DNA of 64,000 nt from Astropecten irregularis (Eukaryota; Echinodermata; Asteroidea; Paxillosida; Astropectinidae). The stretch is from NCBI GenBank assembly GCA_963971285.1, contig OZ020265.1:5682270-5746269 (forward strand). The letters run 5' to 3'. The translations under genes and the position numbers were made by a program. The notes beneath the pieces are model-generated. The model did not search any database. It was not told the DNA's origin and worked only from the letters and a program-made list of their open reading frames with translations. Position 1 is the first letter of the stretch; each line of letters starts with the position of its first letter. This document shows, piece by piece, positions 3,224-57,582 of the stretch.

Positions 3224-3729
3224 CCTCCAGAAATGGGTTTGTGATTGGACTCAGTCCCGAATCTTATTATCCAAACCCCTCCCACGCACATCACCCATCC
3301 ACCACCTCTAATGAGGCATATCCTGAAGTTTCATCGGGCAACCTGAACTCTATCTCCGAATCAACCTCACGCGGAGGACGACTCCTTTCCACAGGTGTGC
3401 TCGCAACTTTATCCCTTTAGGAATTCCGCTGAAGTTCTGCTTTCAACGGCTGAACTTCCCATTGTAGCATTTGATTCTGCAAATCCAGGGACCTCTCAAC
3501 CTTGACAGGCTGTGAGTCAGCCTCACCGAAACTCCAACGTTACCCTTGAAACTATCACTCATCGTGACGTCTCAAGTTCCCACTGGTGGTAAACCTCACA
3601 CCAGTACCGTGCTACAACAATAGCTGCAACAACAAATCACAACACCTCACTGAGGGTTATTGGTCAACCTCGACATCCTAACAACACAGGTTGTCGTACA
3701 CCACGTCAAAAGCAATCCTAAAAGGATAT
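3224..3729 (-). other. 5' leader of the minus-strand Gypsy element
   Basis: This noncoding stretch lies between gag and the primer binding site. It holds no ORF of interest. It contains several copies of the short motif AACCTCA (or one mismatch) that recurs in the adjoining LTR, for example at about 3363, 3592 and 3665. Confidence 0.55.
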
Positions 3730-3743
3730 CACTTCTGACACCA
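3730..3743 (-). promoter_or_regulatory. Primer binding site, tRNA-Leu type
   Basis: Read on the minus strand this is TGGTGTCAGAAGTG, the complement of a tRNA-Leu 3' end (CACTTCTGACACCA). It lies two bases inside the LTR edge, the standard position for priming minus-strand DNA synthesis. The tRNA assignment is from memory of tRNA-Leu acceptor and T-arm sequence. Confidence 0.75.
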
Positions 3744-4548
3744 TTTGTGGCGAACCGGGCCACCCGTCGGTGAATAAACCCCTGGCAAATCCACCAACAG
3801 CGACCATGGGCAATCCCACAAAATTATTTAATGAACCTCACATGCACATGCACATGCGGTTATTTACACGCAAGAGGGGATTATATCACGAACGGAGGAC
3901 TCTAGTCCAAGGCCTGTTCGTTTGTTGGAAATATACCAACCCTAAAGGAAATGACAATCAACGTGGCTACCAATTATCTACAAAGTCAGGTGAACCTCAA
4001 TAAACCTCAGTTCACACAGTGTCTTCCAGAACAACAACAACTGTTTTATTATTCCAACACTTCCTCACAAGTCAACCTTACAGTCTAAACCTCAACTGTG
4101 CATAAATGCATGTGGCTGATAAACCTCACCACAGTAATCAATTTAGGTGGCCAAGTAATCATAAATATTCTGCATAAAGTTTACATAACAAACCTCTTGT
4201 ATTACAACAAGTGTAAACCCACAGCGACTATAAACATCACGGTGGCACCAAGTATGATCAACAGCAACAAGTCATGCAAGTTGCATGATGCAACTACACA
4301 TACTAGCCCAAATAATATGAGAGTAAACCTCGTAACAACTTTAATACATGCAAGCTACGGCTTAGGTTACGGAGCTCTGAGTAAACCTCAGTGTGACTAC
4401 ACGAGACCAGGCCGACACGCTTCCAGCAACCCAAATTCCCACAACGGGGACCAGTTGTGCAAACCACACAGGCCCAAACGACTCTAGCCACTCCTGCTCA
4501 ACCTACAGCCACCCAAGCTGACACTCCCCACTTATTATAAGTGATAAC

Positions 4549-26811: not shown

Positions 26812-26894
26812 AATTTCCGTTGAATCCAAAATGGGTTCATGTGGACTCAGCATCATATTAATGCTCGGCCTCTGTTGCAGTGTGGCCATTTCAC
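26812..26894 (+). CDS. Receptor exon 1: 5' UTR end and signal peptide
   Basis: ATG at 26831 in a good context (CCAAAATGG). The 21 whole codons give a short start, a hydrophobic core ([14 protein letters not shown]) and a small residue near the end, so a secretory signal peptide. Donor GTGAGT follows 26894. The exon ends in phase 1. Bases 26812-26830 are 5' UTR after a probable acceptor. Confidence 0.8.
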
Positions 26895-29800
26895 GTGAGT
26901 ACAATTTATATTCTGCGAAAACGAACAGTGTATGGGGAATAAATAAATCATTAGTGAAAATGAAAGAGTGTAGTGTCCATAAACCTCAAGGAGATGCTTA
27001 GTTATACTTCTGTTTGCGTTTGGTATAGTTTTATCATTGACTGGCAAGCCTCGATTTCTGTCCAGTGGAAAGTTGTTGAGTTAAGCAAAACCAAAGTTTT
27101 AATACAGCTAAGACGCTCATCACATTGTACTTAACAGAAGTTTTGTCCCAGCAAATCTTCACCAACACCGTGAACTGACACCCAAAACGTGCAAGATCAT
27201 GTGTCCATATTTTGAAAATATAGCCGTTTGAAGCTTACGACTTTTTAAAACCGGCTTATTTCAAATCAAATTCAAACAGATATACACACAAATAGTTCAA
27301 ATCGTTAGTAAAACGAAAATCTAAAAAAAAATGCACACAATAGGTACAACTGGTGTCATTCCGTGGTGTCGATGACGAAATGATAGCTTTTTATATTTTA
27401 ATACCTTTGTACCATAAAACATGCTGGATGCGAATTTTGCCTGCCCCTCATGACCAAGGCACTGATCCACGTGTGGAAGTGGAAATGGTAATTTTTGTAT
27501 TCATTAGAATATGGCCCGGCGTGCATCGATGTGTTTCTTGCGGACTTCAGCCAGACGCCTGCATTCTCGGCGAGCGACTGGGACGCCATGAACCTCAGCG
27601 ATTCGTTGGCGATTCGACGGGGCAATTTCCGTGACTACTGCTGGAACATCACGGCTTCTGTGGGAATTGAGATCGAGCTGGATTGTGACATCTCTGCAGA
27701 GCATCGAAGTACAACGTACCTGGATCTGTTCACTGAAGACGATTATGTCTCTTACAACAATGACTATCCTGACGAAATTCGTTCAGCATCTAGACCTCTG
27801 ATATTGAGGTTTCACTCAACCGTTTTCAATCTGTCTGCCTCGTGTGAAGTTAAGCCATTACCAGATATCACGGGTAAGGATACCAACTGTAGGTATTAAC
27901 TTTCTCGTATTAACGGTTCGTAAACAGTGCAAACAGTCACCATTAGAAATCTTGGTTCATCAGATGCTTGGTTTTTTAAGCAAATCAAGATTAAGTTTAC
28001 ATAAAGTAAACTATTCTTCATGTTTTATAAGAAAAATCGAGTCGGGTTTTCGCTATTTTCTCGTGACTCAGATGTCCGATTGAGCTCAAATTCTCACAGG
28101 TTTATTATTTCATGTACATGTTTGATCAGATAATGTATGAGTGCAGTCCTGTGAACTTTACCAATCATGTATTGTACCTTTAACTACGATTTTTGTAATA
28201 GGCTATACTGTCTTGGTTTACATTTTTCAGCTCAGATTTGTGGACCTTCCCTCATCAATCTGACCGAGGCCCATCTCATTAGCTCCTCCACTCCAAATAA
28301 CCGTTTCCAAAAATGCATCTGGCTGGTAACCACCGCTCTGGGCATGACAGCCTACGTTGATCTGTTGAACATCGAGATGAGGGAATACCAGCGTCTTTAC
28401 CTCGGTACTGGGCAGGACAATAACAACATGTCATCCTTGGCGCACACCATTACCTACTTGGAAACCAAAGATGAGAATGGAACTACGTACATCTTCAATG
28501 AGAGGAACATCTGGATCACCTTCATTTCCAGTCCGGATCGCGACTTGAGCAGCAAATTTGAGATGAAACTAGAAATCCTCTTGTGGGCAGAGAACGCAAT
28601 AGAAGAAGGTAAAATTCCGCATTAAAACACAATTAGGTTCAAATTCAAATCAGCCATAAAAAACGGCACAATCTGTAGAAGACACTGATGAGTTTACCTC
28701 TGGCCAAGTATGGTCTCTTGTCTCAAGACCACACAACTCGGTTTTGTTTGGTTTACCATGCCCTTCAGTAGCAAGGCACTGACTCTTAAGATTTTAGATT
28801 CTGCGTGGTACATGTACTATAGTGCGGGTCACTATGTAATGCATTATGGAATTCTGTGGGTTTTTAGTTAGTCAATCCCCAGGAACTCTTGAATTTTTAG
28901 TTCCTGCCGTCCCATGAAGATGAAAATCATGTATTTACAAATAAATGTTACTATTTTCCCGTCTTTCTTTTAGTTCAGTGCGGGACAGAGCAGATAAGTT
29001 GTCCCCGTGACTCCAAGTGCATCCCACAGCAGGCGTTTTGCGACGGTAAGGCGCATTGCTCCAACTACGAGGATGAAGCGGGCCATTGCGGTGAGTAAGA
29101 GCCAAGAGTCCTTGAAGAGGACAATGATTATGTCACTTCCTTGACTCAGAGACTGGGTCTTGGAAGATTTGTTCAAGAAGGCAGGAAGGGACTTTGCAAC
29201 TCGATACAAATACAATAATTACCTCGGAGAGATTCGAACCGCGGACCGTGGGAAGTCAAAGCGCCTCCCCAACCTTGACAAACGATCAGCAAAAGTGGAT
29301 GCTCATGGGATTTCCGTTGGTGTTTGTATCCATTCAAACTTCTCAATAACTGTGCTTTATTTTGCAGATCGGTGCGGCGTGTCAGAGATATCACTGAGAC
29401 CACGTGAAGCTCTGACTATAAGTGGCTTGTTCAAATCCAAGGACATGCCACCCTCCGGTCACTTTGCCATCTACCCTGGAGATTCCCCCTCGTCCTCAAA
29501 TTGGCCCGCCCGAGATGGCATCATCATCACCAACTACACGGAGGAAATAGGACCCCTGGAGTGCATCTGGAAAGTGAGGGAGCCACCCGGAACCAGGATC
29601 CGGGTAAAGGTGGTGGATTTCATCGGTGAGGCAATGGTAATGAGCATGGGGAACGGATCGGATCCGGGTGCGAGTGTTCCTGGTAAGGTGCTCTCTGCCA
29701 AGCTGGGAGTCACTCAACCCACAGACGTGCTGTCGATGGAGGGATCAGGAATGTGGATAACGCTAAAGCATGACTACCCAAACGGATACTTGGTTAAGCT

Positions 29801-32800
29801 CAAACTCGTATTCATCACATACAACGTCGCTGGTAAGCCCATGCAAAATGAGCGATCTTAAGAACTGCCATTTGTATACGAAATACGATATTTTAACAGA
29901 GAGTCTTTCGTGCAGTCTCCCCAAGGACCGGTATGCTCAATTAAGGCCAGATTACGCTACGTTGAGCCATTGCGATATCACTTCATTCCCTCCATTTATA
30001 ATGGCTTGCTCAATCTGTATATTATTTTAGGGGCTTTTCTCAAAGTTGGGCTCCGGCTCAGGCTCCGGCTCAGGCTCCGGCTTTGTCTCTTTAATTATTC
30101 CGAATGCTGGTAATATAGGTTATGGGTTTTCATTGAAGCTGAAGCTCTGTTTTCTGAATACCCGTAATTTGAAAAATGGAGGCAAAGTCGGATCCTGAAC
30201 CAGAGCCGAGCATTGAGGAAGGCCCCTGGCTAGGTCTGACATAATATGGCACTGTTTTCCTGTTTGTTGTTTGTTGATGTTGTTGGGGTGTTTGTCTGTT
30301 TGAGTTTTTCGATTGGTTTTGAGGCCGAAGTGAAGTACTTTAAATTTGGGATGGCATACTATGAAGCCTATGAGAATGTGTCTATTCCTGGTTCATGTTT
30401 CAGGCTGTAGCGAGGATGAGTTCGGCTGTCCAACTGACTTGGAGTGTCTTGAGAATATACCCTGCGTGTGTTCTGGGCACAGTGGAGACGAGTTGGGATG
30501 TGGTATGTATTACTTAAGTCATGCAGTGGCAACACTTATATATAGAACATTCTCAAATTATTCACAGGTCGGGGACCGTTTCCATGTTCCAATTTTGTTG
30601 TGAAATCAACTTTTTGACATCAGCTGAATTGGTTTTGTACATGCTTCATCGGGGAAATGTTCATCAAATTTCCAATTCAGTTAACAGTCCCCGGTTTTAA
30701 ATACCGCTTCATGCTTAAAAGAAACTCTTAAAGATCACAGGAAATGAAAATATGACAAAGTCTACTAGTTTGACGAAATGTTTTATGATCAAAGAATGTT
30801 ATACCCTTGTGTTAATACACTTTCATCCTAGGTTGTCGGTGCTTGACAAGTTAAATACTTAATGTATTTTGCATGATTCAATCATGGATCATTGCACTGC
30901 TGTAATTTCACTCACAGGCTGACCGTCCAATCATAAAATATTGAGTATCAAATGACCAAACATTCTGTCACGTTCCTTCCACCATGTACCATTTTTATTC
31001 ATGATGACCTATCTACGATTATAAATCATGGTTTCAGGTAACTGTTCCACGTCAGAGTTGGCCTGTATGTCAGGACAGTGCGTTTCTACCGATCGGATCT
31101 GTGACGGCATCGCAGACTGCGCGGACCTTATGGACGAATCGTACTGCGGTAAGTTTTCCACAGCTATTCGGCCACAATGCAACAATCATGTTGGCTTGTT
31201 TCACTGAAAATCACAATTTGTTTATATTAAGTTGAACTTGAGTAAACCTGTCTTTATAAAGTGCCAAATTGGATTCTTTATTGCGTCCCTATCGCACCAA
31301 ACAGTTGCAGCCATCACAAATCGCATTCCTCATTAAGTTTGACCACATTTTTAAGGTAAGTTTTTAAGTTGCGATATAAATTGCGACAGTAACTAGGTAG
31401 GTAGAGGGAAGGCAAAAATCGCAGGTTCACTAAATTCTTCAGACATGTTTTACAATCACTTCGATCACTCCTTAAAACAATATTTCTAACTGACTCTTAA
31501 GTTAAGGTGGATTATACAGCACATTCTTGTTAGAAAGCCAATAAATTACAATCCATGACTTGGTTCTGAGGGGCGTGCGAAACAATCAATAAACTCGAGA
31601 TTGTGGTTATTCTCATCTATCCTTGTATATTCCAGGACATTGCGGAAATGCGTTTATCGACGTTACCTTGAACGCATCATCGGTGATAGCATCGCCTGGA
31701 TGGCCTAGCAATAACTATCCGAAAAATGAGCAGTGCTTATGGTTAATAGTGGCAGAGGTGGGATACAGAGTGGTTCTCACTTTCTTGGACTTTAAGACGA
31801 CGCGTAGGGACTACCTGTATTGTTCAAATGGAGACGATTTCAGCGATGCGTTTCTCACATTGGCCGGGTAAACTTTGTTCAATGCTACTCTGTGATTCAA
31901 TGCGGAATTTTCATTTTATTGTATAATGGTTAAAAACCATAAACATCTATGTTACCTCTGTACCTATGCACTGCATAAACCTTAACAAGTAATCGGCATT
32001 TTAAAGGTAATATGTGTTTTTTTTTTTATGGTGATACTTTCTCAAGCGATTTATTCCCCGTCTGGATCGCCTCCAAAAGCAACAAAATGTTCATGAAGTT
32101 CACGTCTGTCTACTCTTATACAACGCGTGGCTTTGAGTTTCTTGTTGAACAGAGACTGTCATACATAGGTGAGTGCAGAAAAGGATGAAAATAGAAGAAC
32201 CGACACGGGGCTTTGCAATTTGGGGATCTTGCATTATGCCGCAAATCTATCTGCAGGTCTGACAAAACTTTTGTTCTGCCTTGAGGTAGTTCCTTATATT
32301 AGTGCATGGGTACGTTAATCCTAAGGTTCTTGGTTCATCTCACGAAAATGTCTCACTGCCAAACCAGTGTGGTGGTCTGGGGTTTTCCCAGTTCGAATAG
32401 TCTCAATTATAATATTGACCTTTAACCTTCCGGTGCATGTGAACAGTGCGTGGTTATGTGTGGTGCATTGCCCTATGCGTGCACTGAGTGTTCTGGGTCA
32501 CGCGCTCTTGCGGCCGGAAGTGGCTGACACTTATATACATTTTGGTGGGTCAGATGAGGGTTTTTTTTGGCAACCTTCCCACGCTTTCGCGGGGATTGCA
32601 GCTTGGGACATGGTGAAGACAAGACGTGCAATATAGCGTATGTTGGGATCACATAATTATCTCTATTAATTTCCTATGATGAAAGCGTGAAATAAAGTTA
32701 ATCAAGCCGATCAAGAATCAACTGTCGATGTCCCGCTGGTCCTTTTTCTGCCTGCCTAGCGTTCCTTTTTCCTGGCTGTAACTTTTGCCTCCGTATCCAC

Positions 32801-35800
32801 CTTCAGTGGCGGACGAGCCGCCGCCTCCGAGCGATCGGCCGGGGACCGGACCGCTACACTAGCAAATAACCCAACAGTTCATAACGCTTGTGTCCCATTG
32901 TCCAACTAGCAAGGATTCCCGAATTTATTCATAATACTGATTTGTGTACATTTACCGTGTAGTTTCTTGTGGCGAGAACGAAATTGCTTGTCATATGGAG
33001 GATCTCGTATGTGTAAGAAACGACATCCCACGGAATGGACGCCACGTTTGTTCACAAGGTAAGAGCGAAAGACATGTCCTGATGCCACTGTATTCTCTTC
33101 TGATGTGGGTCTCTCTATGAATATCATTGGGACCTGAAACCACATAATGTAGTTGTTTGTTTGTCTGTCGGTCGGTCGGGTGGTCGAGCTGTTGGGTGGA
33201 TGTAGAATATATCGATCGAGTGTCTATATGTCGGTATGTTTGAAGACAGGCCCTGTCTTGACCTGTTTGTATTGCTCATTATATATTCATGACATGTAGT
33301 GAACATGACAGACGAGTAACAAACGTGTGAATCAGGTCTCGCCTCATTCCTTGTCAAAATACTAAATTAGGTTGCTGGGGTTGATTGTTTGTTTGGACTG
33401 TTCATCCAAAATGGAGTTGCTCGGAATTTCTGTAAATTCATATATTTTTAATATTCCAGGATCATGTGGAAAACCGCTTATCAACGTTACGCAGAATGCA
33501 TCATCGGTGATAGTATCGCCTGGATGGCCCATCGCTGACTATCCAAATAATCGGCAGTGTTTATGGTCAGTGGTGGCAGAGGTGGAATACAGAGTGGTAC
33601 TCACCTTCGTGGACTTTCAATTGAGAACACGCGACTACCTGTATTGTGGCAGCGAAGACGATTTCAGCAATGCATTTCTCACAGCGACCGGGTAATACTA
33701 GTTCAATGCTCCACAAAGCTTCAATTTAGAGGAAATGTCACCTACATAATTAACGCAAATATCTTACAATCAAATGACTCCAGAAAACTGAGTCATTGGA
33801 TGGTTTGAAAATTGTCTTTGTTCGCATTTCAATAATTTAAACATTATACATCATTACAAGTGATAAACTCCTGCAAACTGCTCATCAGCCTAAATTACCT
33901 GAAATAAATCAAATGTTTACAGTTGGGAGGGCCTGACGCGTTTCGCTGCCAGCTAAATCTTTCTCAAAGGCTAAATGACAAGGGGACAAGAACATGCAAG
34001 TGAAAGAAACACAAAGGAATGAAATAAAGGATGAGAACAATAGGACGGATGTGAGATTGGTCAGACAAACAGGGGTGAGGTAGGCAAGATCAAAGTTGCC
34101 AGACTCCAAAGGTGTGGGGAAGAATGGGGAATAGGGATTAACAAAGATGATAGTTAAAGGATTAGAGATCAAGAAGGAGAAGTCGAGTCCAAAATAAGCT
34201 TCATTTGTGTTTCTTTCACTTGCATGTTCTGGTCCCCTTGTTATTTAGCCTTTGATAAAGATCCTGCTAGGATCAAAACACGTCAGGTCCTCTTAACTCT
34301 AAGCATTATAAATCGTCCTGAACTATGTTATTTAGTTAAACCATGAACATCTTATGGGACCTCTGTACCTATTCACTGTATAATATTGATATCTTATCTA
34401 CATTTTAAATGAAATGATTATATCTTTCTTGTTTTTATAACAATTATTTCTCAAGAGATATGTTCCCCGTCTGGATTGCCTCCAAAAGCAACAAAATGTT
34501 CTTGAAATTCACGTCTATTTTCTGGGGTACTGATCGTGGCTTTGAACTTCTTGTTGAACAGAGACTATCAGACACAGGTGAGTGCAGAAAATGATGAAAA
34601 CAGAAGAAAAATACTGAGTGAAAAACGCCGGTGTCAGAGTTTGGGAAACCAAATGCCGCACAGTAAGCGTGCATCATTGTTGGCAAAGCAAGAGCCTATG
34701 TTGGGTCAAGGCACTAGTTCTTTGCGCACGGACGCATTTTCAGCAATGTTGATAACAATTTGGGGACCATCCTTTATGCCGCAAATCTATATATTGCTCT
34801 AATCAAATTGAAGAGAATTTTAAACAATTGTTTCTCCACTAAGGTGAGAGTAATGGTACGTTTATCGCAAGGTTTTTTGAAAAACACAGAATCTACTGCC
34901 AAGCCGTAGCCAGAACCCTCTATTTTCACACCGGTTTCTTTTAAATAAATGTCTGAAATGAAGCAAGATCAGAGCCAAAGCCTGAATCGACGTTGGCAAA
35001 AAGCACTAGTTCTCTTTGTGCATTGGCGGATATTTTGGCCATGTTGATAGCAATGTGGGGACCTTCCTTTATGCCGAAAATCTATCTACAGGTCTGACAA
35101 AACTGATGGAAATCATTACAACTATTGTTTCTGCATTGAAGTAGTTGCAATATATTACTGCATGGGTGCGCTAATCCTAAGGTTCTTGGTTCATACAGAT
35201 ATTCATAATACTGGTGTCCAATTGTCCATCTAGAAAGGATTCACAAATTTGATCATAACACTGATTTGTGTACATTCACCGTTTAGTTTTTTGCGGTGAG
35301 AACGAAATTGCTTGTAATATGGAGGATCTCGTATGTGTAAGAAACGACAGCTCACGGAATGGACGCCAAGTTTGTTCACAAGGTAAGAGCGAAAGACATG
35401 TCCCGATGCCACTGTATTCTCTTCTGATGTGGGTCTCTCTATGAATCTCAGTCGGACCTGAAACCACATAATTTGTTTGTTTGTCTGTCTGTCGGTCGAG
35501 CTGTTGGGTGGATGTAGAATGTGTCGATCGAGTGTCTATCTGTCGGTCTGTCTGAAGACAGATCGGGATGTTTGTTTATCTGTTTGTTAGGTGTAACATA
35601 TGTAATAGGGCCCTCTATTGACCTGTTGATATTACTTATCATGTATGCATTAAATGTAGTGAACATGACGGCCGAATTATAAACTTGTGAGTCAGGTCTC
35701 GCCTCATTCCTTGTCAAAATACTTAATTAGGTTGCTGGGGTTGATTGTTTGTTTGGACTGTTCATCCAAAATGGAGTTGTTCTGGATTTCGGTAAATTCA

Positions 35801-38800
35801 TATATTTTTAATATTCCAGGATCATGTGGAAAACCGCTTATCAACGTTACGCAGAATGCATCATCGGTGATAGTATCGCCTGGACGGCCCATCGCTGACT
35901 ATCCAAATAATCGGCAGTGTTTATGGTCTGTGGTGGCAGAGTTGGAATACAGAGTGGTACTCAGCTTCGTGAACTTTCAATTGATAAGCTACGACTACCT
36001 GTATTGTAGCAATGGAGACGATTTCAGCAATGCATTTCTCACAACGACCGGGTAAAACTGGTTTCAATGCTACTCAAAGCGTCAATTTAGAGAAAATGTC
36101 ACCTACATAACTATCGCAATTATCTTACAATCAAATGACTCCAGAAAACTGAGTCATTGGATAGTTTGAAAATTGTGTTTGTTCACATTTCAATTACTTA
36201 AACATTATACATCATTACAAGTGATGAACTCCTGCAAATTGCTCATCAGCCTAAATTACCTGAAATAAATCAAATGTTTACAGTTGGGAGGGCTGACGCG
36301 TTTCGCTGCCAGCTAAATCTTTCTCAAAGGCTAAATGACAAGGGGACAAGAACATGAAAATGAAAGAAACACAAAGGAATGAATTAAAGGATGAGAACAA
36401 TAGGAGGGGTGGGAAGTGGGTGAGACTGGGCAGACAAACAGGGGTGAGGTAGGCAAGATCAAAGTTGCCAGACTCCAAAGGTGTGGGGAAGAATGGGGAA
36501 CAGGGATTAACAAAGATGACAATTATAGGATTAGAGATCAAGCTGGAGAAGTAGAGTACAAAAAGTAGCTTCATTTGTGTTTCTTTCACTTGCATGTTCT
36601 GGTCCCCTTGTCATTAAGCCTTTGATAAAGATCCTGCTAGGATCGAAACGCGTCAGGACCTCTTAACTCTAAGCATTATAAATCGTCCTGAACTATGTTA
36701 GTTAAACCATGAAAATCTTATGGGACCTCTATACCTATTCACTTCATAATATTGATATCTTATCTACATTTTAAATGAAATGATAATATCTTTCTTGTTT
36801 TTATAACAATTATTTCTCAAGAGATATGTTCCCCGTCTGGATTGCCTCCAAAAGCAACAAAATGTTCCTGAAGTTTATGTCTAACAACTATCGTACTAAT
36901 CGTGGCTTTGAGCTTCTTGTTGAACAGAGACTATCAGACACACGTAAGTGCAGAAAGGATGTTCAAACCTTTGCATCGGCTACGAATCATTCGTTGTCGC
37001 CGATATGATGAAAACATAGACTGTGGTTTTTCCCTTGAAAAACAAGGAATCTACTGCCAAACCATAGCCAGAACCCTCTATTTTCACACCAGTTTCTTTT
37101 AAATAAATGCCTGAAATGAAGCAAGATCAGAGCGAAAGCCTGAATCGACGTTGGCAAAAAGCACTAGTTCTCTTTGTGCATTGACGCATATTTCGGCCAT
37201 TTTGATAGCAATTTGGGGACCTTCCTTTATGCCGTAAATCTCTCTACAGGTCTGACAAAACTTTTTTTCTGCATTGAGGTAGTTCCTTATATAGTGCATG
37301 GGTACGTTAATCCTAAGGTTCTTGGTTCACCTCACGAAAATGCCTCATTGCCAAACTAGCAAATAACCCAACAGTTCATTATACTGGTGTCCAATTGTCC
37401 ATCTAGAAAGGATTCACAAATTTGATCATAACACTGATTTGTGTACATTCACCGTTTAGTTTTTTGCGGTGAGAACGAAATTGCTTGTAATATGGAGGAT
37501 CTCGTATGTGTAAGAAACGACAGCTCACGGAATGGACGCCAAGTTTGTTCACAAGGTAAGAGCGAAAGACATGTCCCGATGCCACTGTATTCTCTTCTGA
37601 TGTGGGTCTCTCTATGAATCTCAGTCGGACCTGAAACCACATAATTTGTTTGTTTGTCTGTCTGTCGGTCGAGCTGTTGGGTGGATGTAGAATGTGTCGA
37701 TCGAGTGTCTATCTGTCGGTCTGTCTGAAGACAGATCGGGATGTTTGTTTATCTGTTTGTTAGGTGTAACATATGTAATAGGGCCCTCTATTGACCTGTT
37801 GATATTACTTATCATGTATGCATTAAATGTAGTGAACATGACGGCCGAATTATAAACTTGTGAGTCAGGTCTCGCCTCATTCCTTGTCAAAATACTTAAT
37901 TAGGTTGCTGGGGTTGATTGTTTGTTTGGACTGTTCATCCAAAATGGAGTTGTTCTGGATTTCGGTAAATTCATATATTTTTAATATTCCAGGATCATGT
38001 GGAAAACCGCTTATCAACGTTACGCAGAATGCATCATCGGTGATAGTATCGCCTGGACGGCCCATCGCTGACTATCCAAATAATCGGCAGTGTTTATGGT
38101 CTGTGGTGGCAGAGTTGGAATACAGAGTGGTACTCAGCTTCGTGAACTTTCAATTGATAAGCTACGACTACCTGTATTGTAGCAATGGAGACGATTTCAG
38201 CAATGCATTTCTCACAACGACCGGGTAAAACTGGTTTCAATGCTACTCAAAGCGTCAATTTAGAGAAAATGTCACCTACATAACTATCGCAATTATCTTA
38301 CAATCAAATGACTCCAGAAAACTGAGTCATTGGATAGTTTGAAAATTGTGTTTGTTCACATTTCAATTACTTAAACATTATACATCATTACAAGTGATGA
38401 ACTCCTGCAAATTGCTCATCAGCCTAAATTACCTGAAATAAATCAAATGTTTACAGTTGGGAGGGCTGACGCGTTTCGCTGCCAGCTAAATCTTTCTCAA
38501 AGGCTAAATGACAAGGGGACAAGAACATGAAAATGAAAGAAACACAAAGGAATGAATTAAAGGATGAGAACAATAGGAGGGGTGGGAAGTGGGTGAGACT
38601 GGGCAGACAAACAGGGGTGAGGTAGGCAAGATCAAAGTTGCCAGACTCCAAAGGTGTGGGGAAGAATGGGGAACAGGGATTAACAAAGATGACAATTATA
38701 GGATTAGAGATCAAGCTGGAGAAGTAGAGTACAAAAAGTAGCTTCATTTGTGTTTCTTTCACTTGCATGTTCTGGTCCCCTTGTCATTAAGCCTTTGATA

Positions 38801-41800
38801 AAGATCCTGCTAGGATCGAAACGCGTCAGGACCTCTTAACTCTAAGCATTATAAATCGTCCTGAACTATGTTAGTTAAACCATGAAAATCTTATGGGACC
38901 TCTATACCTATTCACTTCATAATATTGATATCTTATCTACATTTTAAATGAAATGATAATATCTTTCTTGTTTTTATAACAATTATTTCTCAAGAGATAT
39001 GTTCCCCGTCTGGATTGCCTCCAAAAGCAACAAAATGTTCCTGAAGTTTATGTCTAACAACTATCGTACTAATCGTGGCTTTGAGCTTCTTGTTGAACAG
39101 AGACTATCAGACACACGTAAGTGCAGAAAGGATGTTCAAACCTTTGCATCGGCTACGAATCATTCGTTGTCGCCGATATGATGAAAACATAGACTGTGGT
39201 TTTTCCCTTGAAAAACAAGGAATCTACTGCCAAACCATAGCCAGAACCCTCTATTTTCACACCAGTTTCTTTTAAATAAATGCCTGAAATGAAGCAAGAT
39301 CAGAGCGAAAGCCTGAATCGACGTTGGCAAAAAGCACTAGTTCTCTTTGTGCATTGACGCATATTTCGGCCATTTTGATAGCAATTTGGGGACCTTCCTT
39401 TATGCCGTAAATCTCTCTACAGGTCTGACAAAACTTTTTTTCTGCATTGAGGTAGTTCCTTATATAGTGCATGGGTACGTTAATCCTAAGGTTCTTGGTT
39501 CACCTCACGAAAATGCCTCATTGCCAAACTAGCAAATAACCCAACAGTTCATTATACTGGTGTCCAATTGTCCATCTAGAAAGGATTCACACATTTATTC
39601 ATAACACTGATTTGTGTACATTCATCGTTTAGTTTCTTGCAGTGAGAACGAAATTGCTTGTAATATGGAAGATCTCGTATGTGTAAGAAACGACATCTCA
39701 CGGAATGGACGCCAAGTTTGTTCACAAGGTAAGAGCGAAATACATGACCTGATGCCACTGTATTCTCTTCTGATGTGGGTCTCTCTATGAATTTCAGTGG
39801 GACCTGAAACCATATAATTTGTTTGTTTGTCTGTCGGTCGGGTGGTCGAGCTGTTGGGTGGATGTAGAATATGTCGATCGTGTGTCTATCTGTCGGTCTT
39901 TTTGAAGACAGGTCGGGATGTTTGTTTGTCTGTTTATCTGTTTGTTCGGTGTAACATATGTAAAAGGGCCCTCTCTTGACCTGTTGGTATTAATCATCAT
40001 GTATACAATACATGTAGTGAACATGACAACCGAGTTTAAACTTGTGAGTCAGGTCTCGCCTCATTCCTTGTCAAAATAATAAATTAGGTTGGTGGGGTTG
40101 ATTGTTTGTTTGGACTGTTCATCAAAAACGGGGTAGCTCGGAATTTTGGTATATTCATATTTTTTAATATTCCAGGATCATGTGGAAAACCGCTTATCAA
40201 CGTTACGCAGAATGCATCATCGGTGATAGTATCGCCTGGACGGCCCTTCGCTCATTATCCAAATTATCGGCAGTGTTTATGGTCTGTAGTGGCAGAGGTG
40301 GAATACAGAGTGGTACTCACCTTCGTGGACTTTCAATTGATGAACTACGACTACCTGTATTGTAGCAATGGAGACGATTTCAGCAATGCATTTCTCACAA
40401 CGACCGGGTAAAACTGGTTCAATGCTACTCAAAGCTTCAATTTAGAGAAAATGTCACCTACATAATTAACGCAAATATCTTACAATCAAATGACTCCAAA
40501 AAACTGAGCCATTTTATGGTTTGAAAACCTCTCCTGTCAAGTTGTCTTTGTTCACATTTCAATAACTTAAACATTATACATCATTACAAGTGATAAACTC
40601 CTGCAAACTGCTCATCAGCCTAAATTACCTGAAATAAATCAAATGTTTAGAGTTGGGAGGGGCCTGACGCGTTTCGCTGCCAGCTTAATCTTTCTCAAAG
40701 GCTAAATGACAAGGGGACAAGAACATGCAAGTGAAAGAAACACAAAGGAATGAATTAAAGGATGAGAACAATAGGAGGGGTGGGAAGTGGGTGAGACTGG
40801 TCAGACAAGCAGGGGTGAGGTAGGCAAGATCAAAGTTGCCAGACTCCAAAGGTGTGGGGAAGAATGGGGAATAGGGATTAACAAAGATGATAATTAGAGG
40901 ATAAGAGAGATCAAGCTGGAGAAGTAGAGTACAAAAAGCAGCTTCATTAGTGTTTCTTTCACTTGCAATGTTCTGGTCCCCTTGTCATTTAGCCTTTGAT
41001 ACAGATCCTGCTAGGATCGAAACGCGTCATGCCCTCTTAACTCTAAGCATTATAAATCGTCCTGAACTATGTTAATTAGTTAAACCATGAAAATCTTATA
41101 GGACCTCAGCCTATTCACATGCATATTATTGATATCTTATCTACATTTTAAATGAAATGATTATATCTTTCTTGTTTTTATGACAATTATTTCTCAAGAG
41201 ATATGTTCCCCGTCTGGATTGCCTCCAAAAGCAACAAAATGTTCTTGAAATTCACGTCTAACTTATGGGGTACTGATCGTGGCTTTGAACTTCTTGTTGA
41301 ACAGAGACTATCAGACACACGTAAGTGCAGAAAGGATGAAAACAGAAGCACCGACAAGGGGCCTTGTTCAAACCTTTGCATCGGCTACGAATCATTCGTT
41401 GTCGCCGATATGATGAAAACATAGACTTTGTTTTTTTCCCTTGAAAAACAAAAAATCTACTGCCAAGCCGTAGCAAAAACCCTCTATTTTCACACCGGTT
41501 TCTTTTAAATAAATGCATGAAATGAAGCAAGATCAGAGCCAAAGCCTGAATCGATGTTGTAAAAAAGAACTAGTTCTCTTTGTGCATTGATGCATATTTG
41601 GGCCATGTTGATAGCAATTTGGGGACCTTCCTTTATGCCGTAAATCTCTCTACAGGTCTGACAAAACTTTTTTTTCTGCATTGAGGTAGTTCCTTATATA
41701 GTGCATGGGTACGTTAATCCTAAGGTTCTTGGTTCACCTCAGGAAAATGCCTCATTGCCAAACTAGCAAATAACCCAACAGTTCATAATACTGGTGTCCA

Positions 41801-44800
41801 ATTGTCCATCTAGAAAGGATTCACAAATTTATTCATAACACTGATTTGTGTACATTTACCGTTTAGTTTCTTGCAGTGAGAACGAAATTCCTTGTAATAT
41901 GGAAGATCTCGTATGTGTAAGAAACGACAGCTCACGGAATGGACGCCAAGTTTGTTCACAAGGTAAGAGCGAAAGACATGTCCTGATGCCACTGTATTCT
42001 CTTTTGATGTGGGTCTCTCTATGAATCTCAGTCGGACCTGAAACCACATAATTTGTTTGTTTGTCTGTCTGTCGGTCGAGCTGTTGGGTGGATGTAGAAT
42101 GTGTCGATCGAGTGTCTATCTGTCGGTCTGTCTGAAGACAGATCGGGATGTTTCTTTATCTGTTTGTTAGGTGTAACATATGTAATAGGGCCCTCTATTG
42201 ACCTGTTGATATTACTTATCATGTATGCATTAAATGTAGTGAACATGACGGCCGAATTATAAACTTGTGAGTCAGGTCTCGCCTCATTCCTTGTCAAAAT
42301 AATAAATTAGGTTGGTGGGGTTGATTGTTTGTTTGGACTGTTCATCAAAAACGGGGTAGCTCGGAATTTTGGTATATTCATATTTTTTAATATTCTAGGA
42401 TCATGTGGAAAACCGCTAATCAACGTTACGCAGAATGCATCATCGGTGATAGTTTCGCCTGGATGGCCCATCGCTGACTATCCGAATTATCGTCAGTGCT
42501 TATGGTCAGTGGTGGCAGAGGTGGGATACAGAGTGGTACTCACCTTCCTGGACTTTGAGATGGAACACGGCTATGACTACCTGTATTGTGGCAACGGAGA
42601 CGATTTCAGCAATGCATTTCTCACAACGACCGGGTAATACTAGTTCAATGCTACTCAAAGCTTCAATGTAGAGCAAATGTCAACTACATAATTGAAATTA
42701 TAAATATCTAACAAGGAACAATACAGAAAACTGAGTCATTGGATGGTTTGAAAACCGCTCAAGTCAAATTGTCTTTGTTCACATTTCAATAACCTAAACA
42801 ATATATAAATCATCCTGAACTTTGTTATTTATTTAGTTAAACCATAAACAACTTATGGGACCTCTGTACATATTCACTGCATAATATTGATATCTTGTCT
42901 ACATTTTAAATGAAATAATTATATATTTATTGTTTTTATAACAATTATTTCTCAAGAGATTTGTTCCCCGTCTGGATTGCCTCCAAAAGCAACAAAATGT
43001 TCTTGAAATTTACCTCTGACGGCAGTGTTACTTATCGTGGCTTTGAGCTTCTTGTTGAACAGAGACTATCAGACACAGGTGAGTGCAGAAAATGATGAAA
43101 ACAGAAGAAATACACTGAGTGAAATACGCCGGTGTCAGAGTTTGGGAAACCAAATGCCGCACAGTAAGCGTGCATCATTGTTGGCAAAGCAAGAGCCTAT
43201 GTTGGGTCAAGGCACTGGTTCTTTGGGCACTGACGCATTTTCAGCAATGTTGATAACAATTTGGGGACCATTCTTTATGCCCCAAATCTATATATTGCTA
43301 TAATCAAATTGAAGGGAATTTCAAACAATTGTTTCTCCACTAAGGTGGGAGTAATGGTACGTTTATCGCAAGGTTTTTGGTTCAATTGCCGAAAAAGACT
43401 AGTGAAAATGCTCCATTGCCCATTCAGTAAATAGCCCAAAATCTATTACATTAACACTAATTTGTATCCATTTACCGTTCAGTTTCTTGCGGTGTAAATG
43501 AGGTTGCTTGTACAACAGAGGACCTTGTATGTTTAAGAAATGACAGCTCACGGAATCAACTCCAAATTTGTCCAACAGGTAAGAGCGAAGGCCGTGTTGG
43601 GAAGACACTGCATTTTCCATTCACGTGGACCTTTTCATGAAACTCAAAAGGATACGAAAGCCCAACAATAGATTTGTTTCGATTAGAAGTCTTTGTGTTA
43701 AAAGGGTTGTCTGTCGAGCTGTCGGCGTTTGTCTGTCGGTCGTGCTGTTGGGCGGGATGGAATGTCAGGCTGTCTAGCTCATTTTTTTTTTATTTTTGAT
43801 ATTTTGGGGCGGTGTTAGGGGGACTTTGTTTGTTTCCATTAAAGTGAAGCTCGATCGTCCACCAGGTTTGGTATCAGGTATCAGGTTTGCTCAAGTTTGT
43901 GGTATTTTCCATCTATTGGTAATTTTCCAGAACCTTGCAGTGATACGAAAGTCAACGTTACGCAGAATGCATCATCGGTGATAGCATCGCCTGGATGGCC
44001 CTTCGCTGACTATCCCAATGATCAGCAGTGCTTATGGTCAGTGGTGGCAGATGTGAGATACAGAGTGGTTCTCACCTTTGTGACATTTGAGATGAAACAA
44101 TACGACTACCTGTATTGTGGCAATGGAGACGATTTCAGCAATGCGTTTCTCAAATTGACCGGGTAAAGTGTTTTTAATGTTACTATGTGGTTTAATTATT
44201 ATTGTTAACCATAAACATTTTGGGCCGAATTCACAAAAGGTGTTTTTCTTCTACACGCGTCTAACTTTCCTTAACGGGTGATCATCTTATGCGTTTAGAA
44301 GGTCATCAATTCTAGAAGGGTGTATATGCAGAGGCCGTTTATCATTTAGACACTAGTGTCTAGCGAACAAATTTTAGACGTGCCAAGGGGGTTATTTAAG
44401 CCCTGTGTTGATGTCGCAGTGCCGTTAATTTGGTCATGGTCGCGATAAGAATACTGGAACTTGCACTGAAGACAGCTGTATCTCTGATTCTCGTCTGCAT
44501 CAGTGTTTCCCTTAGATCTTCCTGTTTAGCCCTGTATTCGGCAATGGCCTTAATTTTCATTCCTCGCCACAATTCCTTCAGTTCCTTTTATTTGTGGTAC
44601 TTTCTCTTCGAATGGGGAAAGTGCCTTCAATGGCTCTTAATTTTATTTAGTTCCAGGATGTTGGTTTCTTTCTGTTAGTGTCTATATCACCTTTCGTGTC
44701 CTCAACCCCGGCCTTTTGTCTTTTGATGAGCTGAATGACACCCACTCGCTGATCACAATCATGTGAAATTTTCTATTCCTATTTTCGCTTGTATCCGACT

Positions 44801-47800
44801 TGTTTCATGTACAAAATGAACATGCATGCGCTTTCGCCACCCCCCCCCCCCCCCCCTGAATCTTGTCCAGGGAAAGGTTACGCAACGTCGCAAACGACCG
44901 TTAACAAAGGAACCTGGGTCATCACGATTGCTGCTATTGTATTATCACCACTTAAACACAGCTTACAAGACAAACTGCACACGTGAAGCTAAACGGTTGC
45001 AAAACACCCGTCGTGAAATTGGAAAAACAATTGCGTTTAGCTGTCCGCGTGCAAAGTGTGTTTAGACACTATTGAGGATGTAAACAGTGATTAGTAAAAC
45101 GGAAGAAAAACACCTTTCATGAATATCGGCCCTTTATGTCACCCCGTTTGTATTTACTGCATAAACCTTTATATTCACTCCTAATTTCAAAGAAAACATA
45201 TCTGTCTTTTCTATGGTGATAATTTCTCAAGCGATATATTCCCCGCCTGGATTGCCTCCAAAAGCAACCAAATGTTCCTGAAGTTCACGTCTAACTACGG
45301 TGGTATTAATCGTGGCTTTGAGCTCCCTGTTGAACAGAGACCATCAGACACAGGTGAGTGTAGAAAATGATGAAAACAGAAGAAACATACTGAGTGAAAG
45401 ACGCCGGTGTCAGACTTTGGGAAACCAAATGCCGCATAGTGAGCGTGCATCATTGTTGGCATCGGCTGCGGCTCCGCCTTCGGCTCTGGCTTCGGCTGTT
45501 ATTCATATAAAACTAGGCTGTGGAATTGCGTTGTTCAAAACAAAGAATCTACTGTCAAGAAGTAGTGAAAAGCCTTTTTCTCACGTGTTAATTTCAAATG
45601 AATGCACGAAATGGATCACGACCGGGAGCCAAAGCCAGAGCCTATGTTGAGTCAAGGCACTAGTTCTTTATGCACTGACGCAATTTCAATCATGTTGCAA
45701 ACAATTTGGGGACTATCCTTTATGCCGCAAATCTATGTATTGCTCTGACAAGACTGAAAAGAGACTATCAGACACAAGTGAGTACAGAAAAGGGGAGACA
45801 ACAGAAAAAATATACTGAGTGAAGGACGTAATTGTGAGAGTTTTTGGAGCAAATGCCGTACGGTAAGCGTGTAGAAGCGGATATCGGCCCTGGCTCCGCC
45901 TTCATGCTCCGGCTTCGGCTCTGTCAGTCATATAAAAAAGTCTATTTGCTTTTCCTTGACCGAAACAGAGAATCTACCGCCAAGCAGTAGCCAAAAGCCT
46001 CTTTTTCACACCTGTTCATTTCAAATGAATGCAAGAAATGGAGCCCGATCTGGAGCGAAAGCCAGTGCCTATCAGCCTCTATGCTATAAATCTATCTACT
46101 GCTCTGACCAAAATGAACGGAAGTTAGAACAGTTATTCTTATATGGCGCGTTAATCCTAAGGTTCTTGGTTCAATTGCGGAATATGTGAAAATGCCCTAT
46201 TGCCCATTCTGTAAATTACCAAACATATATTATTTTATATTAACACTGGTTTTGTATGATTAACGTTTAGTTTATTGCGATGAGAACGAAATTGCTTGTA
46301 AAATGGAGGACCTCGTATGTATAAGAAACAACAGCTCAAGGAATCAACGTCAAGTTTGTTCACAAGGTATGAGCAAGGGCCGTGTTCCGATGACACTGCA
46401 TTTTTCGGTGACGTGGGCCTCTTCATGAGGTTCAGGACACGAAACCTCACAATAGATTTGTTTCGATTGTTTGTCTTTATGTTGAAGGGGTTGTCTATCG
46501 AGCTGTCGGTGTTTGTATATCGGTCGGGCTGTCGGATGGGATGGAATGTGAGGTTGTCTAGCTCCTTTAATTATTTGTTTGTTGGATATTTATCGGGGTG
46601 TTACGGGGACTTTGTTTGTTTGTTTGTTTGTTTGCATTAAAATAAAGCTCGACTGTCCACCAGGTTTGGTATCAGGTATCAGGTTTGCTCAAGATTGTGG
46701 TAAAGTTCATTTATTGATAATTTTCCAGAACCTTGCAGTGATACGTTTGTCAATGTCACGCGGAATGCTTCATCGGTGATAGCATCGCCTGGATGGCCCA
46801 TCGCTGACTATCCAAATAATCGGCAATGCTTATGGTCAGTGGTGGCAGATGAGGGATGCAGAGTGGTTCTCACCTTCGTGAACTTTGCGATGAAAGTCTT
46901 GGACTACGTGTATTGCAGCAATGGAGACGATTTCAGCGATGCGTTTCTCACATTGACCGGGTAAAATCTGCTTCTCTCCGAATTTTCGTTATCACATTTT
47001 ACTATGGTTAACCATAATCACCTCTCTACCTATAACCTGTAACAACGGGAAATACATTTATGACAATACTTTATCTAGAGATTCGTTCCCCGTCTGGATT
47101 GCCTCAAAGGACAACAAAATGTTCCTGAAGTTCACGTCTGACCGCAGAGTTACTAATCGTGGCTTTGTGCTTCTTGTTGAACAGAGACCATCATACACAG
47201 GTGAGTGCAGAAAGGATAATATCAGAAGCGACACAGAGTGAAAGGCGCCACTTGGGAACAAATAACTTCCATTGGCACCGGAGCCGGTTTCGTCTCGGTT
47301 AACTTATCCTGAGAATCCAAATCTACTTCCAAGTCATATCCAAAAGCGGATCCATTACTTTAAAACGGATGTACAATTAGAGGGCTATATGTATTAAACG
47401 TAGCAATTGATTGTAAGCAACTGCTTGAAGCACAAGCAATTGTTGCTTGTCTGGCAAAAGATAAAGTTCAAGCAATTTCTTAAATCCGTATGCATGAACT
47501 TTTCCTTGTGCTTGAGGTTTCAACAATAGGGATGCCAAGCCGGTACCAACACCAAATTGCATCATGAACAAAACTGCTACAGCTTAAAATAATACCAATG
47601 GTTTAAAGTTTTCCATTTGGTCATCAGTACATAACAAATGAATTGTGTGAATGGGCCCAATGGTAGCAATTTTGTGGACCCTCCTTAATGCTACAACTCT
47701 ATCAAGAGCACTGGAACCGGAGGGAATTTAGAACTATGGTTTTTGCTCTAAGGTATAGATTATGTATACGTCAGAGAACGTGTAGGTTGATCCTTATGTT

Positions 47801-50800
47801 CTTGGCTCAACTCCAGAATAAAGGAAAGTACCTCATTGCCAAACTATAGTCATAACACTGATGTGTGTACATTTATCGATTAGTAACTTGCGGTGAGAAC
47901 GAAATTCCGTGCAATATGGAGGACCTCGTATGTGTAAGAAACGACAGCTCACGGAATGGACGCCAAGTTTGTTCAACAGGTAAGAGCGAAGGGCATGCTC
48001 TGGCTTCCCTGTGAAGCACAGTCGGACCTTTACCCTCACAATAGACTGTTATATATGTTGGGTGTAGGCGTATTTGTTCGTTTGTTTGTTTGTATGTATG
48101 TTGTGGGTGTTTGTTGGGATGTTTTTTTTCCGGGGTGTTTGTTTCTGTTTGTTGGGGTGTTTGTTGGTGGTGTTGGGGTGTTTGTTTGTTTGTTTGTCCA
48201 TTTGTTTGTTTGTGTTTGTTAGGGGTGTTTGTTAGGGGTGTTTCTTTGTTTGTTGGTTGGTTGGTCTGTTTGTCTGTCTGCGTTGGTGTTGGTCTGGATG
48301 TCTGCTTAGAAGTCGGTCTTTGCTGATTGTTTGTTTGCTTGTGTTTTTCCTTGTTTTTTGGTTTACTTATTAGTAATCGACTGTTCCGGATTAGATAAGT
48401 CCCGCCCACCTTAGCAACGCCACATGTTTTACACACCGCACGTGACCTAGTTTGACCGAGGTGCTTGGACGACAACGACTGCAATTAATGCATACAGTTT
48501 GATTGACGGGTTTATTTACTGGCTTGCTTGTTTACTTCATGCCCGTAGGTGACTGTGGCGATTACTTGTACGACATTTTGTTTTCACCTGGAGACCTGTA
48601 CTCTCCCGGATATCCAAATAACTATCCTTCCGATCTAGACTGTGAATGGCTGGTAACCTCCCGACACATCATGACGATCTCAATACTTTCATTTGCAACT
48701 GAGACCTCTCGGGATGAGCTCTGGCTCACTGGCGACACTCTCCACGGAGGAGCTGGGATGGTGTTCAGGATGCACGGCATCACTAAAGTAAGAACCATCA
48801 CCTTTAATCCAAACGAGGTGACGGTACACTTCAGGACGGATTCCACTGTGACCAAAGAAGGCTTCCACCTTAAACTCTCTTCGATGTTTGGTGAGAATGT
48901 CAACAATGCATATTAATACGTCAACGGTCTAGGACCTTTAAGTCCACGGTTCAGAATTCATATGTCCAATGTCAAACCTCCACATGTGCAACACGAACAT
49001 ACACATGTGTCATTTCAGAGCCACCGTAGACAAGTACAGTTGTGTGAATCGACCATTATATGGGGAAAAACAGTGAATTGGTGTGAAACCACGAAGTGTG
49101 GGAAAGAGACTAGTATATAACTGGTAAACAAAGAGGGGGAGCACGTTAAATGGTTTATTGCACAGTTATCATGACAATACAAGATACTCACAAAAGTGGG
49201 CCTCCATGGCGGTTTGCAACGTACGGTTGGCCAATAATAATGCGTGGGATTTGGAAAGATCATTCCAATTTCGACCATTGTTATTGGCCAACGTGTTGCA
49301 AACTCTTGGAGGCGCACTATTGTGAAACGCCCGTATTCTCTCTAACCAAAAAATAAGCTGGAGGTAGGAATAGATATTCATCTTGGAGGAAAATATGTTT
49401 CAGCCATAGAACTGAATGAAGTATACACATTGGGTGATGATCGAGTTCCTAAGAGATAAAGTAATGAGGAATAGACTACTTTAAAACTTTTCAGAAGAGC
49501 CACAGTGTTTCGGCCATACTAGCTTCAAAATGTGTTTCACGTTCAAAAACCACGACGGGACCAACCACGTATAGGAAGGACATTAGGAACAATTATTATA
49601 CTGAAAACACCTGCTGAAGAAACTATAACAATTTCACTATGAACAATTCAGTAAAATCAAACATGATTTGATTTAGGAGGGCGCTTGATGTTTCGATCCC
49701 AGCAGTATCAATGCATCCTTTAAGAAAGATATTGCTTGCTAGGATTGAAACGTCAGGCTCTCTTAATTCTGAGCAGCTTTTGAGAAAGATCCTGCTATGA
49801 TAGAAACATCCGGTCCTCCTAACTCATGCATTTAATATAATTTAGGTCACTATGTTGGTTGATGAGCAGTTTGTAGCAGGTGATTACTTGTATCAATTCA
49901 AGCATGTTTGACATTTTGTGACTCGCTCTGCGAAAGTGAGTCATACGTCACTCAGCATGTTTAAAGGATATAGTTTATGAAACCTGGGAAGAGTTTGTAG
50001 AATAATAAGTTCATTCTGTGCTTTAGAACTAGTAGACGTGTAGAATGTAAAATGGTACAAACATGAACCATGTTAAACCTCATGGGGCATTTTTTCTCAT
50101 CTTACAGATATAACTGAGTTTGCCAAATGTGTGACTTAAGCCTCATTTTTACAGAGCAGGTCACATTTATCAAAATTGCTTTCGCCGATGACTCATTGGT
50201 AATCTTTGTCTCTTCCAATATTTGTCCTTGATATATTAGCGCTTACTCCGTGTCCATACTCTGGCCTCTTTGACTGTGGCGATGGCTCCTGTGTGTCAAG
50301 TGACGCGCGATGTGATGGTTTTCAAGATTGTCAGACGGATGGCTCAGATGAGCTCGATTGCAGTGAGTGCTGATTTGTAATTTTAGTGCAAAATTTAATT
50401 CAGTTCTACAGACAGCACGGTCAAACTTCCACTCTGAAGAATGGTTCGCAATATACACGAGGTGTGCCCAATTGGCACTTTCGCAGATATGCCGAACATG
50501 TACAGTGAAAGGCATAATGGAGAAATGAGGCCCACAAATGAAGGGATTGGGCCACCTGACGAAGCCGAAGAAAGGCTCCAGCTTCGCCATGTATCTCAAG
50601 CCAATTCACTGCATTTAGAATTGAAAAAAGGCAGTAGCAAAAATCGCCTTGCCTTAAAGGGTCTCTGCAATAGGAATATTATGACTTTAACGCGTGTCAA
50701 TAAGAAATGGTTATATGGGGCCTGTGATTTAACCCTCCTCCTCACACTGTTTCGGGGTAAACAACAGGTTTTTTGTTTGTATGCTAATTAGGATTTCCAT

Positions 50801-57284: not shown

Positions 57285-57582
57285 AAAGGCATAATACAGG
57301 ATTGGTATTAAACGTTTACAGAACAATCATGGAATAATACCAAACCTGTGCAATATTCAGCTCATTATGAGCATCGAAAGCTGTAGAAAACAGTGAAAAC
57401 GCTTACAGTATTTTCAAATCTATTCACAGGAGGTTTGATCTCACCTCGAGATGTTTTACAAATGTCTGGATAAATACATCATTTCAGGCTGAAATATTTT
57501 AACGGTACTCAAAGAACGAAATAAGCGGAGTCTGTGGGCGGTTATAAATGTGGCATAAGTGCCAAAAGAAGTAAGTTTGAAC

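Follow-up and report, generated by a model that had tools for sequence, protein, structure and literature searches.

A predicted family of LGR-type receptors with expandable CUB arrays in the starfish Astropecten irregularis

We analysed a stretch of 64,000 nt from the starfish Astropecten irregularis (GenBank assembly GCA_963971285.1, contig OZ020265.1, positions 5,682,270 to 5,746,269; hereafter the window), which carries a tandem array of eight CUB-containing units at 31636–47979. The array is best explained as the ectodomain of a single receptor gene related to the leucine-rich repeat (LRR)-containing G-protein-coupled receptors (GPCRs), or LGRs. We propose that this gene belongs to a large family combining CUB, LDLa, LRR and seven-transmembrane (7TM) parts, and that the family recognizes many or fast-changing ligands, a reading to which we assign a probability of about 0.7. 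The predicted gene comprises 41 exons (7,446 nt, 2,481 aa) with no internal stop codon, and its frame closes from a signal peptide to a single-exon 7TM; phase 1 was found at 26 of the 40 introns and phase 2 at 14. The model begins with a signal-peptide-like start, followed by an unassigned module, a CUB-like module, an LDLa module, a second unassigned module, a shortened LDLa-like module and a further LDLa module. The eight units come next, then a single-exon CUB (the terminal CUB), two LDLa modules, an LRR cap, four 72 nt LRR exons, a 93 nt exon and the 7TM exon. Unit exon borders were taken from mutual comparison of the eight repeat copies, and flanking exons from splice-site scoring. A preliminary description of this DNA had proposed that one gene joins the CUB array to LRRs and a 7TM part, and the predicted structure bears this out, through the closed frame of the 41 exons and through paralogues that keep the order and the strand. 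On the same grounds, a separate secreted gene was rejected as the principal reading of the array.

All 24 exons proposed for the array were confirmed, each with an AG acceptor and a GT donor and none with a stop codon. Seven units consist of exons of 232, 122 and 96 nt (450 nt, 150 aa), termed A, B and C, and unit 6 of 235, 122 and 96 nt (453 nt, 151 aa); the phases 1-2, 2-1 and 1-1 were upheld by the 41-exon model. Each 450 nt triplet is a frame-neutral cassette. CUB identity was confirmed in the four of the eight units that were scanned (Pfam CUB, E 4e-15 to 3e-18), and the spliced units are 65–98% identical to one another. The third exon of each unit, which encodes 32 residues with four Cys, had been called a short LDLa. 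This name stands only as a plausible origin, consistent with weak profile similarity to the initial part of the gene's own LDLa modules (probability 63); Pfam LDLa matched none of the three versions tested, and a full LDLa was rejected, as the exon has four Cys rather than six. Exons 2 and 5 (27508–27873 and 29368–29832) were rejected as CUBs, being without a Pfam match and with hhalign probabilities of 1.5 and 4.3, so the gene is not counted as having twelve CUBs. Chance was likewise rejected as the origin of the pattern, given the intact splice sites and frames of 24/24 exons and the same exon order in all seven paralogue arrays read. Units 3 and 4 are 98% identical because of an exact tandem duplication of 2,211 nt, which is either very recent or an assembly artefact; in the latter case the true number of units could be seven.

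The assembly (475.7 Mb, 168 contigs; the window lies on contig C30, and loci are given below as contig:position) was searched with the 384-residue 7TM part of the window gene as query, and 107 of 240 candidates were scored. At least 73 matches were found, of which at least 40 cover at least 340 of the 384 residues and are counted here as the 40 receptors. Their 7TM exons, 29 of them on C30, are 48–100% identical to the window 7TM, and a stop codon occurs in one. Searches with the units (at least 153 matches), the terminal CUB (58) and the N-terminal CUB-like module (17, itself included) led to the same neighbourhoods, in the same order and on the same strand. Among the matches listed, 33/40 7TM exons have a CUB on their own strand no more than 40 kb upstream, compared with 0/40 upstream on the opposite strand, 3/40 downstream on the same strand and 1/40 downstream on the opposite strand. 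Of all the evidence tying the array to the receptor, this co-occurrence is the strongest. The counts drew on the 58 terminal-CUB matches, the unit A-exon matches and general CUB-search matches on the receptors' contigs, with doubles merged and a C23 CUB cluster far from any receptor excluded; they were identical when only 43 of the 58 terminal-CUB matches were used. The seven receptors with no upstream CUB among the matches listed are C30:5772602, C30:5443564, C10:3366192, C30:2993270, C30:1683373, C30:7295681 and C30:10225043.

The same association was apparent from the units themselves. Among the matches listed, 62 cover the A exon, and 61 of these have a family 7TM on the same strand no more than 34 kb downstream; unit-like matches precede at least 16 paralogues, with one to eight each (window gene and the ordinary CUB at C30:1616123 excluded, the latter being only 34% identical in its A-exon match). 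At C19:2603556-2603894 and 2605489-2605785 (+), a unit-like CUB with an A-exon match stands beside a terminal-CUB-like match, and no family 7TM nearby is among the matches listed. Some diverged members, in neighbourhoods picked beside CUB matches, also keep the order LDLa, LRR cap, 7TM. The family is likely to be lineage-specific, because many of its 7TM copies are 92–99% identical in sequence.

The 7TM part is of the rhodopsin class (Pfam 7tm_1, E 8.7e-29). As in LGRs, an LRR domain stands directly before it (LRR_8, E 2.7e-21), and phase 2-2 exons run into the 7TM exon. Its best PDB match is RXFP1 (E 1.2e-35), just ahead of the thyrotropin receptor (3e-32), and the ten best PDB sequences comprise RXFP1, TSHR, FSHR, LHCGR and one chain named only by profile. 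The receptor had been suggested to be relaxin-type, a label that the data do not support: although RXFP1 is the best PDB match, a 171-residue RXFP1 segment placed C12:8807276 clearly first in the genome (38% identity, 128.5 bits), above the window gene (27%, 78.8 bits), in what is a ranking rather than a tree. RXFP orthology was rejected on present evidence, as the first-ranked locus lies outside the family. The segment matched near-full-length family members at 25–34%, with a partial 51% match on C20; its second and third loci, C1:3369490 and C30:236582, are 46–47% identical to the window 7TM and may be distant family members. In NCBIfam the 7TM part had no match and the LRR part only one, far under its cut-off. 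By eye, the DRY motif of class A reads DSF, NPxxY is kept as NPYLY, and the second extracellular loop of the window 7TM (55512–56667) looks long.

We consider the predicted receptor an LGR with type C features, whose predicted architecture is closer to type C2 (GRL101) than to RXFP. The pointer to type C2 comes from its several LDLa modules, four above the Pfam cut-off and one degenerate. GRL101 of Lymnaea, which has ambulacrarian orthologues, shares with the present gene a rhodopsin-class 7TM, LRRs and several LDLa modules. The excerpts of PMC8286064 give GRL101 twelve LDLa modules and six LRRs; a figure legend in that paper labels no parts other than LDLa, LRR and 7TM, and one gene per species is given. 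In contrast, the present family has 40 near-full-length 7TM exons, 33 of them with an upstream CUB among the matches listed. Type C1 LGRs (RXFP1-RXFP2, Drosophila LGR3/LGR4, starfish RXFP/LGR3) are alike in their LGR-type 7TM and in combining LDLa with LRRs, but have one or two LDLa modules (excerpt of PMC11863921) and, in RXFP1, ten LRRs (excerpt of PMC4561518), whereas the window gene has five LDLa-type exons and four to five LRR exons, and the top locus for RXFP1 is outside the family. Adhesion GPCRs such as ADGRG6/GPR126 also carry CUB in a GPCR ectodomain, as partial text of PMC2246102 reports for amphioxus, and the unit profile retrieves ADGRG6. They are of a different class: only 7tm_1 was found here, and no GPS or GAIN match in the exons scanned, four of the eight units included.

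The array was described beforehand as expandable, and comparison between genes agrees, with one to eight units per gene and duplications within genes. The seven paralogue arrays that were read contain 8, 8, 6, 6, 5, 3 and 2 units; all seven keep the A-B-C exon order with few exons missing, and their exon lengths, as picked automatically, differ by multiples of three. With the window's eight counted, 39 of 46 units are complete; four of the others are cut by stretch ends, and in three the A exon was not found intact. The complete units were placed in a maximum-likelihood tree, many of whose deeper forks are weak. In it the first units of seven genes cluster together (support 99/93), and units 6, 7 and 8 of the window are each placed with late units from other genes (98/93, 98/82 and 95/93). 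Grouping by gene was seen for window units 2–5 (95/89) and for C23 units 3/4 and C30:4503509 units 4/5 (100/99 each). From these sequences, it looks as if the array ends, the first unit above all, are old and common to genes, and middle units multiply within genes.

Replacement is biased towards two stretches of the CUB. In the window units these have an omega of 1.8, against 0.51 elsewhere (scan-shuffle p 0.026, the stretches being picked post hoc). The same stretches in 31 complete units of other genes gave 1.49 versus 0.51, a difference reached by 13 of 2000 random window pairs, and 100 subsamples put omega in the two loop stretches at 1.26–1.75 (5–95% range). All omega values are simple counting estimates on related sequences rather than codon models, and the loop alignment is uncertain. 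Compared with CUBs of cubilin, PCPE-1 and neuropilin-2, the first variable stretch corresponds to the loop in which ordinary CUBs carry C3, shortened in the units by four to six residues, and the second to the loop after the F-x-S motif. The canonical second CUB disulphide (C3-C4) is gone on the same comparison, the C3 stretch being deleted and the C4 position taken by a residue other than Cys. The units share six invariant Cys (39/39), and a Cys at residue 63 is present in 36/39; 30/39 units have seven Cys, an odd number.

Positions of the first CUB domain of C1s were placed on the units via other CUBs and through what we take to be the C1s sequence. On this placement the equivalent of Asp53 is Asp in 37/39 units, the equivalent of Asp98 is Asp or Asn in 31/39, and that of Glu45 falls within the shortened hypervariable loop. 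According to the excerpts of PMC4222235, Glu45, Asp98 and Ser100 of C1s CUB1 contact a ligand lysine, and Asp53 belongs to the Ca2+ site.

The 7TM part is better conserved than the ectodomain. It exceeded the terminal CUB in 15/15 paralogues with both parts (C19:10288045, with a split 7TM match containing a stop, was left out), and in the ten closest paralogues median divergence was 4.5% for the 7TM and 30% for the terminal CUB. The N-terminal module was less conserved than the 7TM in 14/14 paralogues (C30:4503509 having no N-terminal match), at 69–93% identity in close ones.

Taken at the level of sequence, the gene is most likely a diversified recognition receptor, in which the CUB loops would bind and the 7TM would give a shared output. 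Unequal crossing-over at the frame-neutral cassettes would lengthen or shorten the array, and the CUB units would form a repeated binding rod. Ligand could then be contacted by the two hypervariable loops beside the conserved, putatively Ca2+-binding aspartate, as in C1s CUB1. The LDLa, LRR and hinge parts may relay binding to the conserved 7TM, such that many or fast-changing ligands would be recognized with one shared signalling output. By analogy, the RXFP activation model, in which LDLa is possibly a tethered ligand (excerpt of PMC4561518), offers a possible route from ectodomain to 7TM. The 'sensing' role suggested for the ectodomain in the preliminary description is one that we infer, and its ligands may be pheromones, gametes, neighbours or microbes. 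Expression of a starfish GRL101 gene was higher in sensory tentacles than in tube feet in the excerpted text of PMC6267866, a pattern that would fit a recognition role, though it concerns a different gene.

A number of observations weigh against recognition by such a family. The two loops were picked post hoc from the window gene, and the genes used as a test are separate but not independent by descent. Gene conversion of a single exon could partly explain the conservation of the 7TM, and with DSF at the DRY position the receptor may or may not couple to G proteins. The close 7TM copies at C30:5772602, C30:5443564 and C10:3366192 have no array, terminal CUB or N-terminal module among the matches listed, so that 7TM and array are separable; the first of these (C30:5772602-5773753, +) is 99% identical, lies 35 kb downstream of the window gene's 7TM and may be a partial copy of recent origin. 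The A exon was not found intact in the second unit of C30:4868748 (matched only from residue 22), the first unit of the C23 gene or the third of C30:4503509 (matched as a pair of overlapping pieces), and a stop interrupts the C23 gene's terminal CUB; for these reasons, some family members may be damaged. In the literature, the excerpts of PMC8286064 report one orthologue each of three LGR types per ambulacrarian species studied despite extensive search, and those of PMC9759900 compare only four starfish relaxin-receptor-like genes. A CUB-array LGR family is reported in the excerpts of neither source; it was filed elsewhere, overlooked or absent from those species.

Other explanations of the array were weighed against the same data. 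It is possible, though unlikely, that transcripts carry different subsets of the symmetric three-exon units, giving many isoforms from one gene: the length of each window unit is divisible by three and both its ends are in phase 1, and single LDLa or LRR exons are sometimes skipped in the excerpted accounts of PMC8286064, yet ordinary module duplication leaves the same phase symmetry. Somewhat less probable is an array that acts mainly as a spacer or mucin-like shield, its copy number setting the reach of an LRR-7TM hormone receptor and its units binding nothing specific. The variation from one to eight copies and the presence of at least one N-glycosylation sequon in each of the eight window units would suit such a role, which does not, however, predict replacement focused in two loops at the CUB ligand face, nor an aspartate conserved in 37/39 units.

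We regard as improbable that alternative ends or splicing let the locus yield overlapping products, one a secreted protein with the CUB array and the other a separate receptor with the LRRs and the 7TM. Phase 1-1 borders would let any block be skipped, and 7TM copies lacking an array exist among the matches listed, but order and strand are kept across paralogues. There is a similarly slim chance that copy number is partly an artefact, with units duplicated or collapsed by the assembler; the exact 2,211 nt duplication across units 3 and 4 points that way, whereas the other window unit pairs are 65–90% identical and the seven arrays read elsewhere carry their own unit sequences. A recognition receptor with a shared 7TM output remains our preferred reading. 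Its furthest extension, which we offer tentatively and with more doubt than belief, is a diversified GPCR-based recognition system of dozens of LGR-type genes with fast-changing array length and loops, perhaps unit splicing, and one unpaired Cys per unit possibly linking adjacent units or receptor chains, serving the recognition of partners, gametes, pheromones or microbes.

Other proteins resemble parts of this architecture. Cubilin (PDB 3kq4), the best PDB match of the unit profile (E 3.8e-27), also has tandem CUBs; cubilin is not known to have a 7TM, and the units here alternate CUB with a four-Cys module and are without the usual second CUB disulphide. Sea urchin EBR1, the egg receptor for sperm, is an echinoderm recognition protein that likewise has a repeated CUB-containing ectodomain, but is not known to be a GPCR. 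The LGRs known so far are mostly hormone receptors; their ectodomains are built of LRRs and LDLa modules, and each species has few such genes. In the present genome the LGR framework underlies a large family in which the CUB array can expand, the 7TM is conserved and the loops at the CUB ligand face change fast, and no LGR with a CUB array was described in the titles, abstract openings and passages of the open-licence literature searched. If variable ligands are indeed what the family recognizes, it would represent, among GPCRs, a counterpart to other diversified families that serve recognition. The arrays are also a clear case of ends common to genes with turnover in the middle.

Table 1. Positions of predicted features in the window
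Feature	Position	Strand	Remarks
Exon 1	26831..26894	+	ATG and 21-residue signal-peptide-like stretch (hydrophobicity judged by eye); donor phase 1
Exon 2	27508..27873	+	122-residue extracellular module; no Pfam match; hhalign to units, probability 1.5
Exon 3	28231..28608	+	CUB-like N-terminal module; no Pfam match; hhalign to units, probability 90.7, over about the first half
Exon 4, LDLa 1	28974..29090	+	Pfam E 6.8e-7
Exon 5	29368..29832	+	155-residue module; no Pfam match; hhalign probability 4.3
Exon 6	30404..30502	+	Shortened LDLa-like; six Cys; no Pfam match
Exon 7, LDLa 3	31038..31148	+	Pfam E 4.7e-9
Unit 1	31636..33058 (exons 31636-31867, 32047-32168, 32963-33058)	+	CUB and four-Cys module
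Unit 2	33460..35382 (exons 33460-33691, 34456-34577, 35287-35382)	+	
Unit 3	35820..37555 (exons 35820-36051, 36822-36943, 37460-37555)	+	
Unit 4	37993..39728 (exons 37993-38224, 38995-39116, 39633-39728)	+	
Unit 5	40176..41962 (exons 40176-40407, 41199-41320, 41867-41962)	+	
Unit 6	42399..43578 (exons 42399-42633, 42957-43078, 43483-43578)	+	First exon 235 nt
Unit 7	43931..46366 (exons 43931-44162, 45232-45353, 46271-46366)	+	
Unit 8	46729..47979 (exons 46729-46960, 47079-47200, 47884-47979)	+	Eight Cys
Exact tandem duplication	35208..39591	+	35208-37418 = 37381-39591, 2,211 nt
Terminal CUB, single exon 3' of array	48549..48890	+	Pfam E 2.1e-12
LDLa 4	50240..50362	+	Pfam E 4.6e-9; weak acceptor at 50240
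LDLa 5	51379..51501	+	Pfam E 3.2e-6
LRR N-terminal cap	52344..52461	+	118 nt, phase 1-2; assigned by eye, no Pfam cap match
Four 72 nt LRR exons	52605-52676, 53361-53432, 53873-53944, 54336-54407	+	Phase 2-2; LRR_8 E 2.7e-21 on spliced exons
93 nt exon	55181..55273	+	Phase 2-2; perhaps last LRR-like repeat (by eye)
7TM exon	55512..56667	+	LGR-type hinge and stop codon; 7tm_1 E 8.7e-29

Elsewhere in the window, GT-rich simple repeats (TTTG/GGTGTT) occupy 48046–48290, in the intron directly 3' of the array. A retroelement lies just downstream of the receptor gene, as a reverse transcriptase frame at 57559–59004 (+; RVT_1, E 9.4e-22) within which an ALKBH8_N match is barely above its cut-off; Pfam gave nothing beyond these two on ten long open reading frames elsewhere in the window. 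An open frame of 349 aa at 6–1052 (+) has no Pfam match, and positions 1–4000 have a G+C content of 0.50, against 0.36–0.43 elsewhere, with a GC skew of −0.24.

Further CUB-rich loci were seen in the genome. At C8:28287813-28295696 (−), one uninterrupted open frame spans 3,330 aa and matches CUB many times; it apparently encodes a CUB-array protein without introns. Single-exon CUBs are densely clustered at C23:2455716-2509505 (−) and C24:2054236-2113168; in the C23 cluster, identically scored CUB pairs about 10.5 kb apart suggest recent segmental copies. Five partial CUB matches about 10 kb apart at C16:8862479-8901709 (+) are perhaps a regular tandem family.

Contig C168 (16,335 bases) contains a COX1 frame with AAA at five conserved Asn sites, ATA read as Ile, AGA as Ser and TGA as Trp, in contexts that we presume to be conserved; these readings correspond to NCBI table 9, the code of echinoderms and some flatworms, in agreement with an echinoderm source. 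The COX1 match at C131:32162-33484, which contains no stops, is probably on a contig from a bacterial contaminant, and the partial COX1 at C25:9951047-9952018, in which TGA occurs seven times, is probably a nuclear mitochondrial copy.

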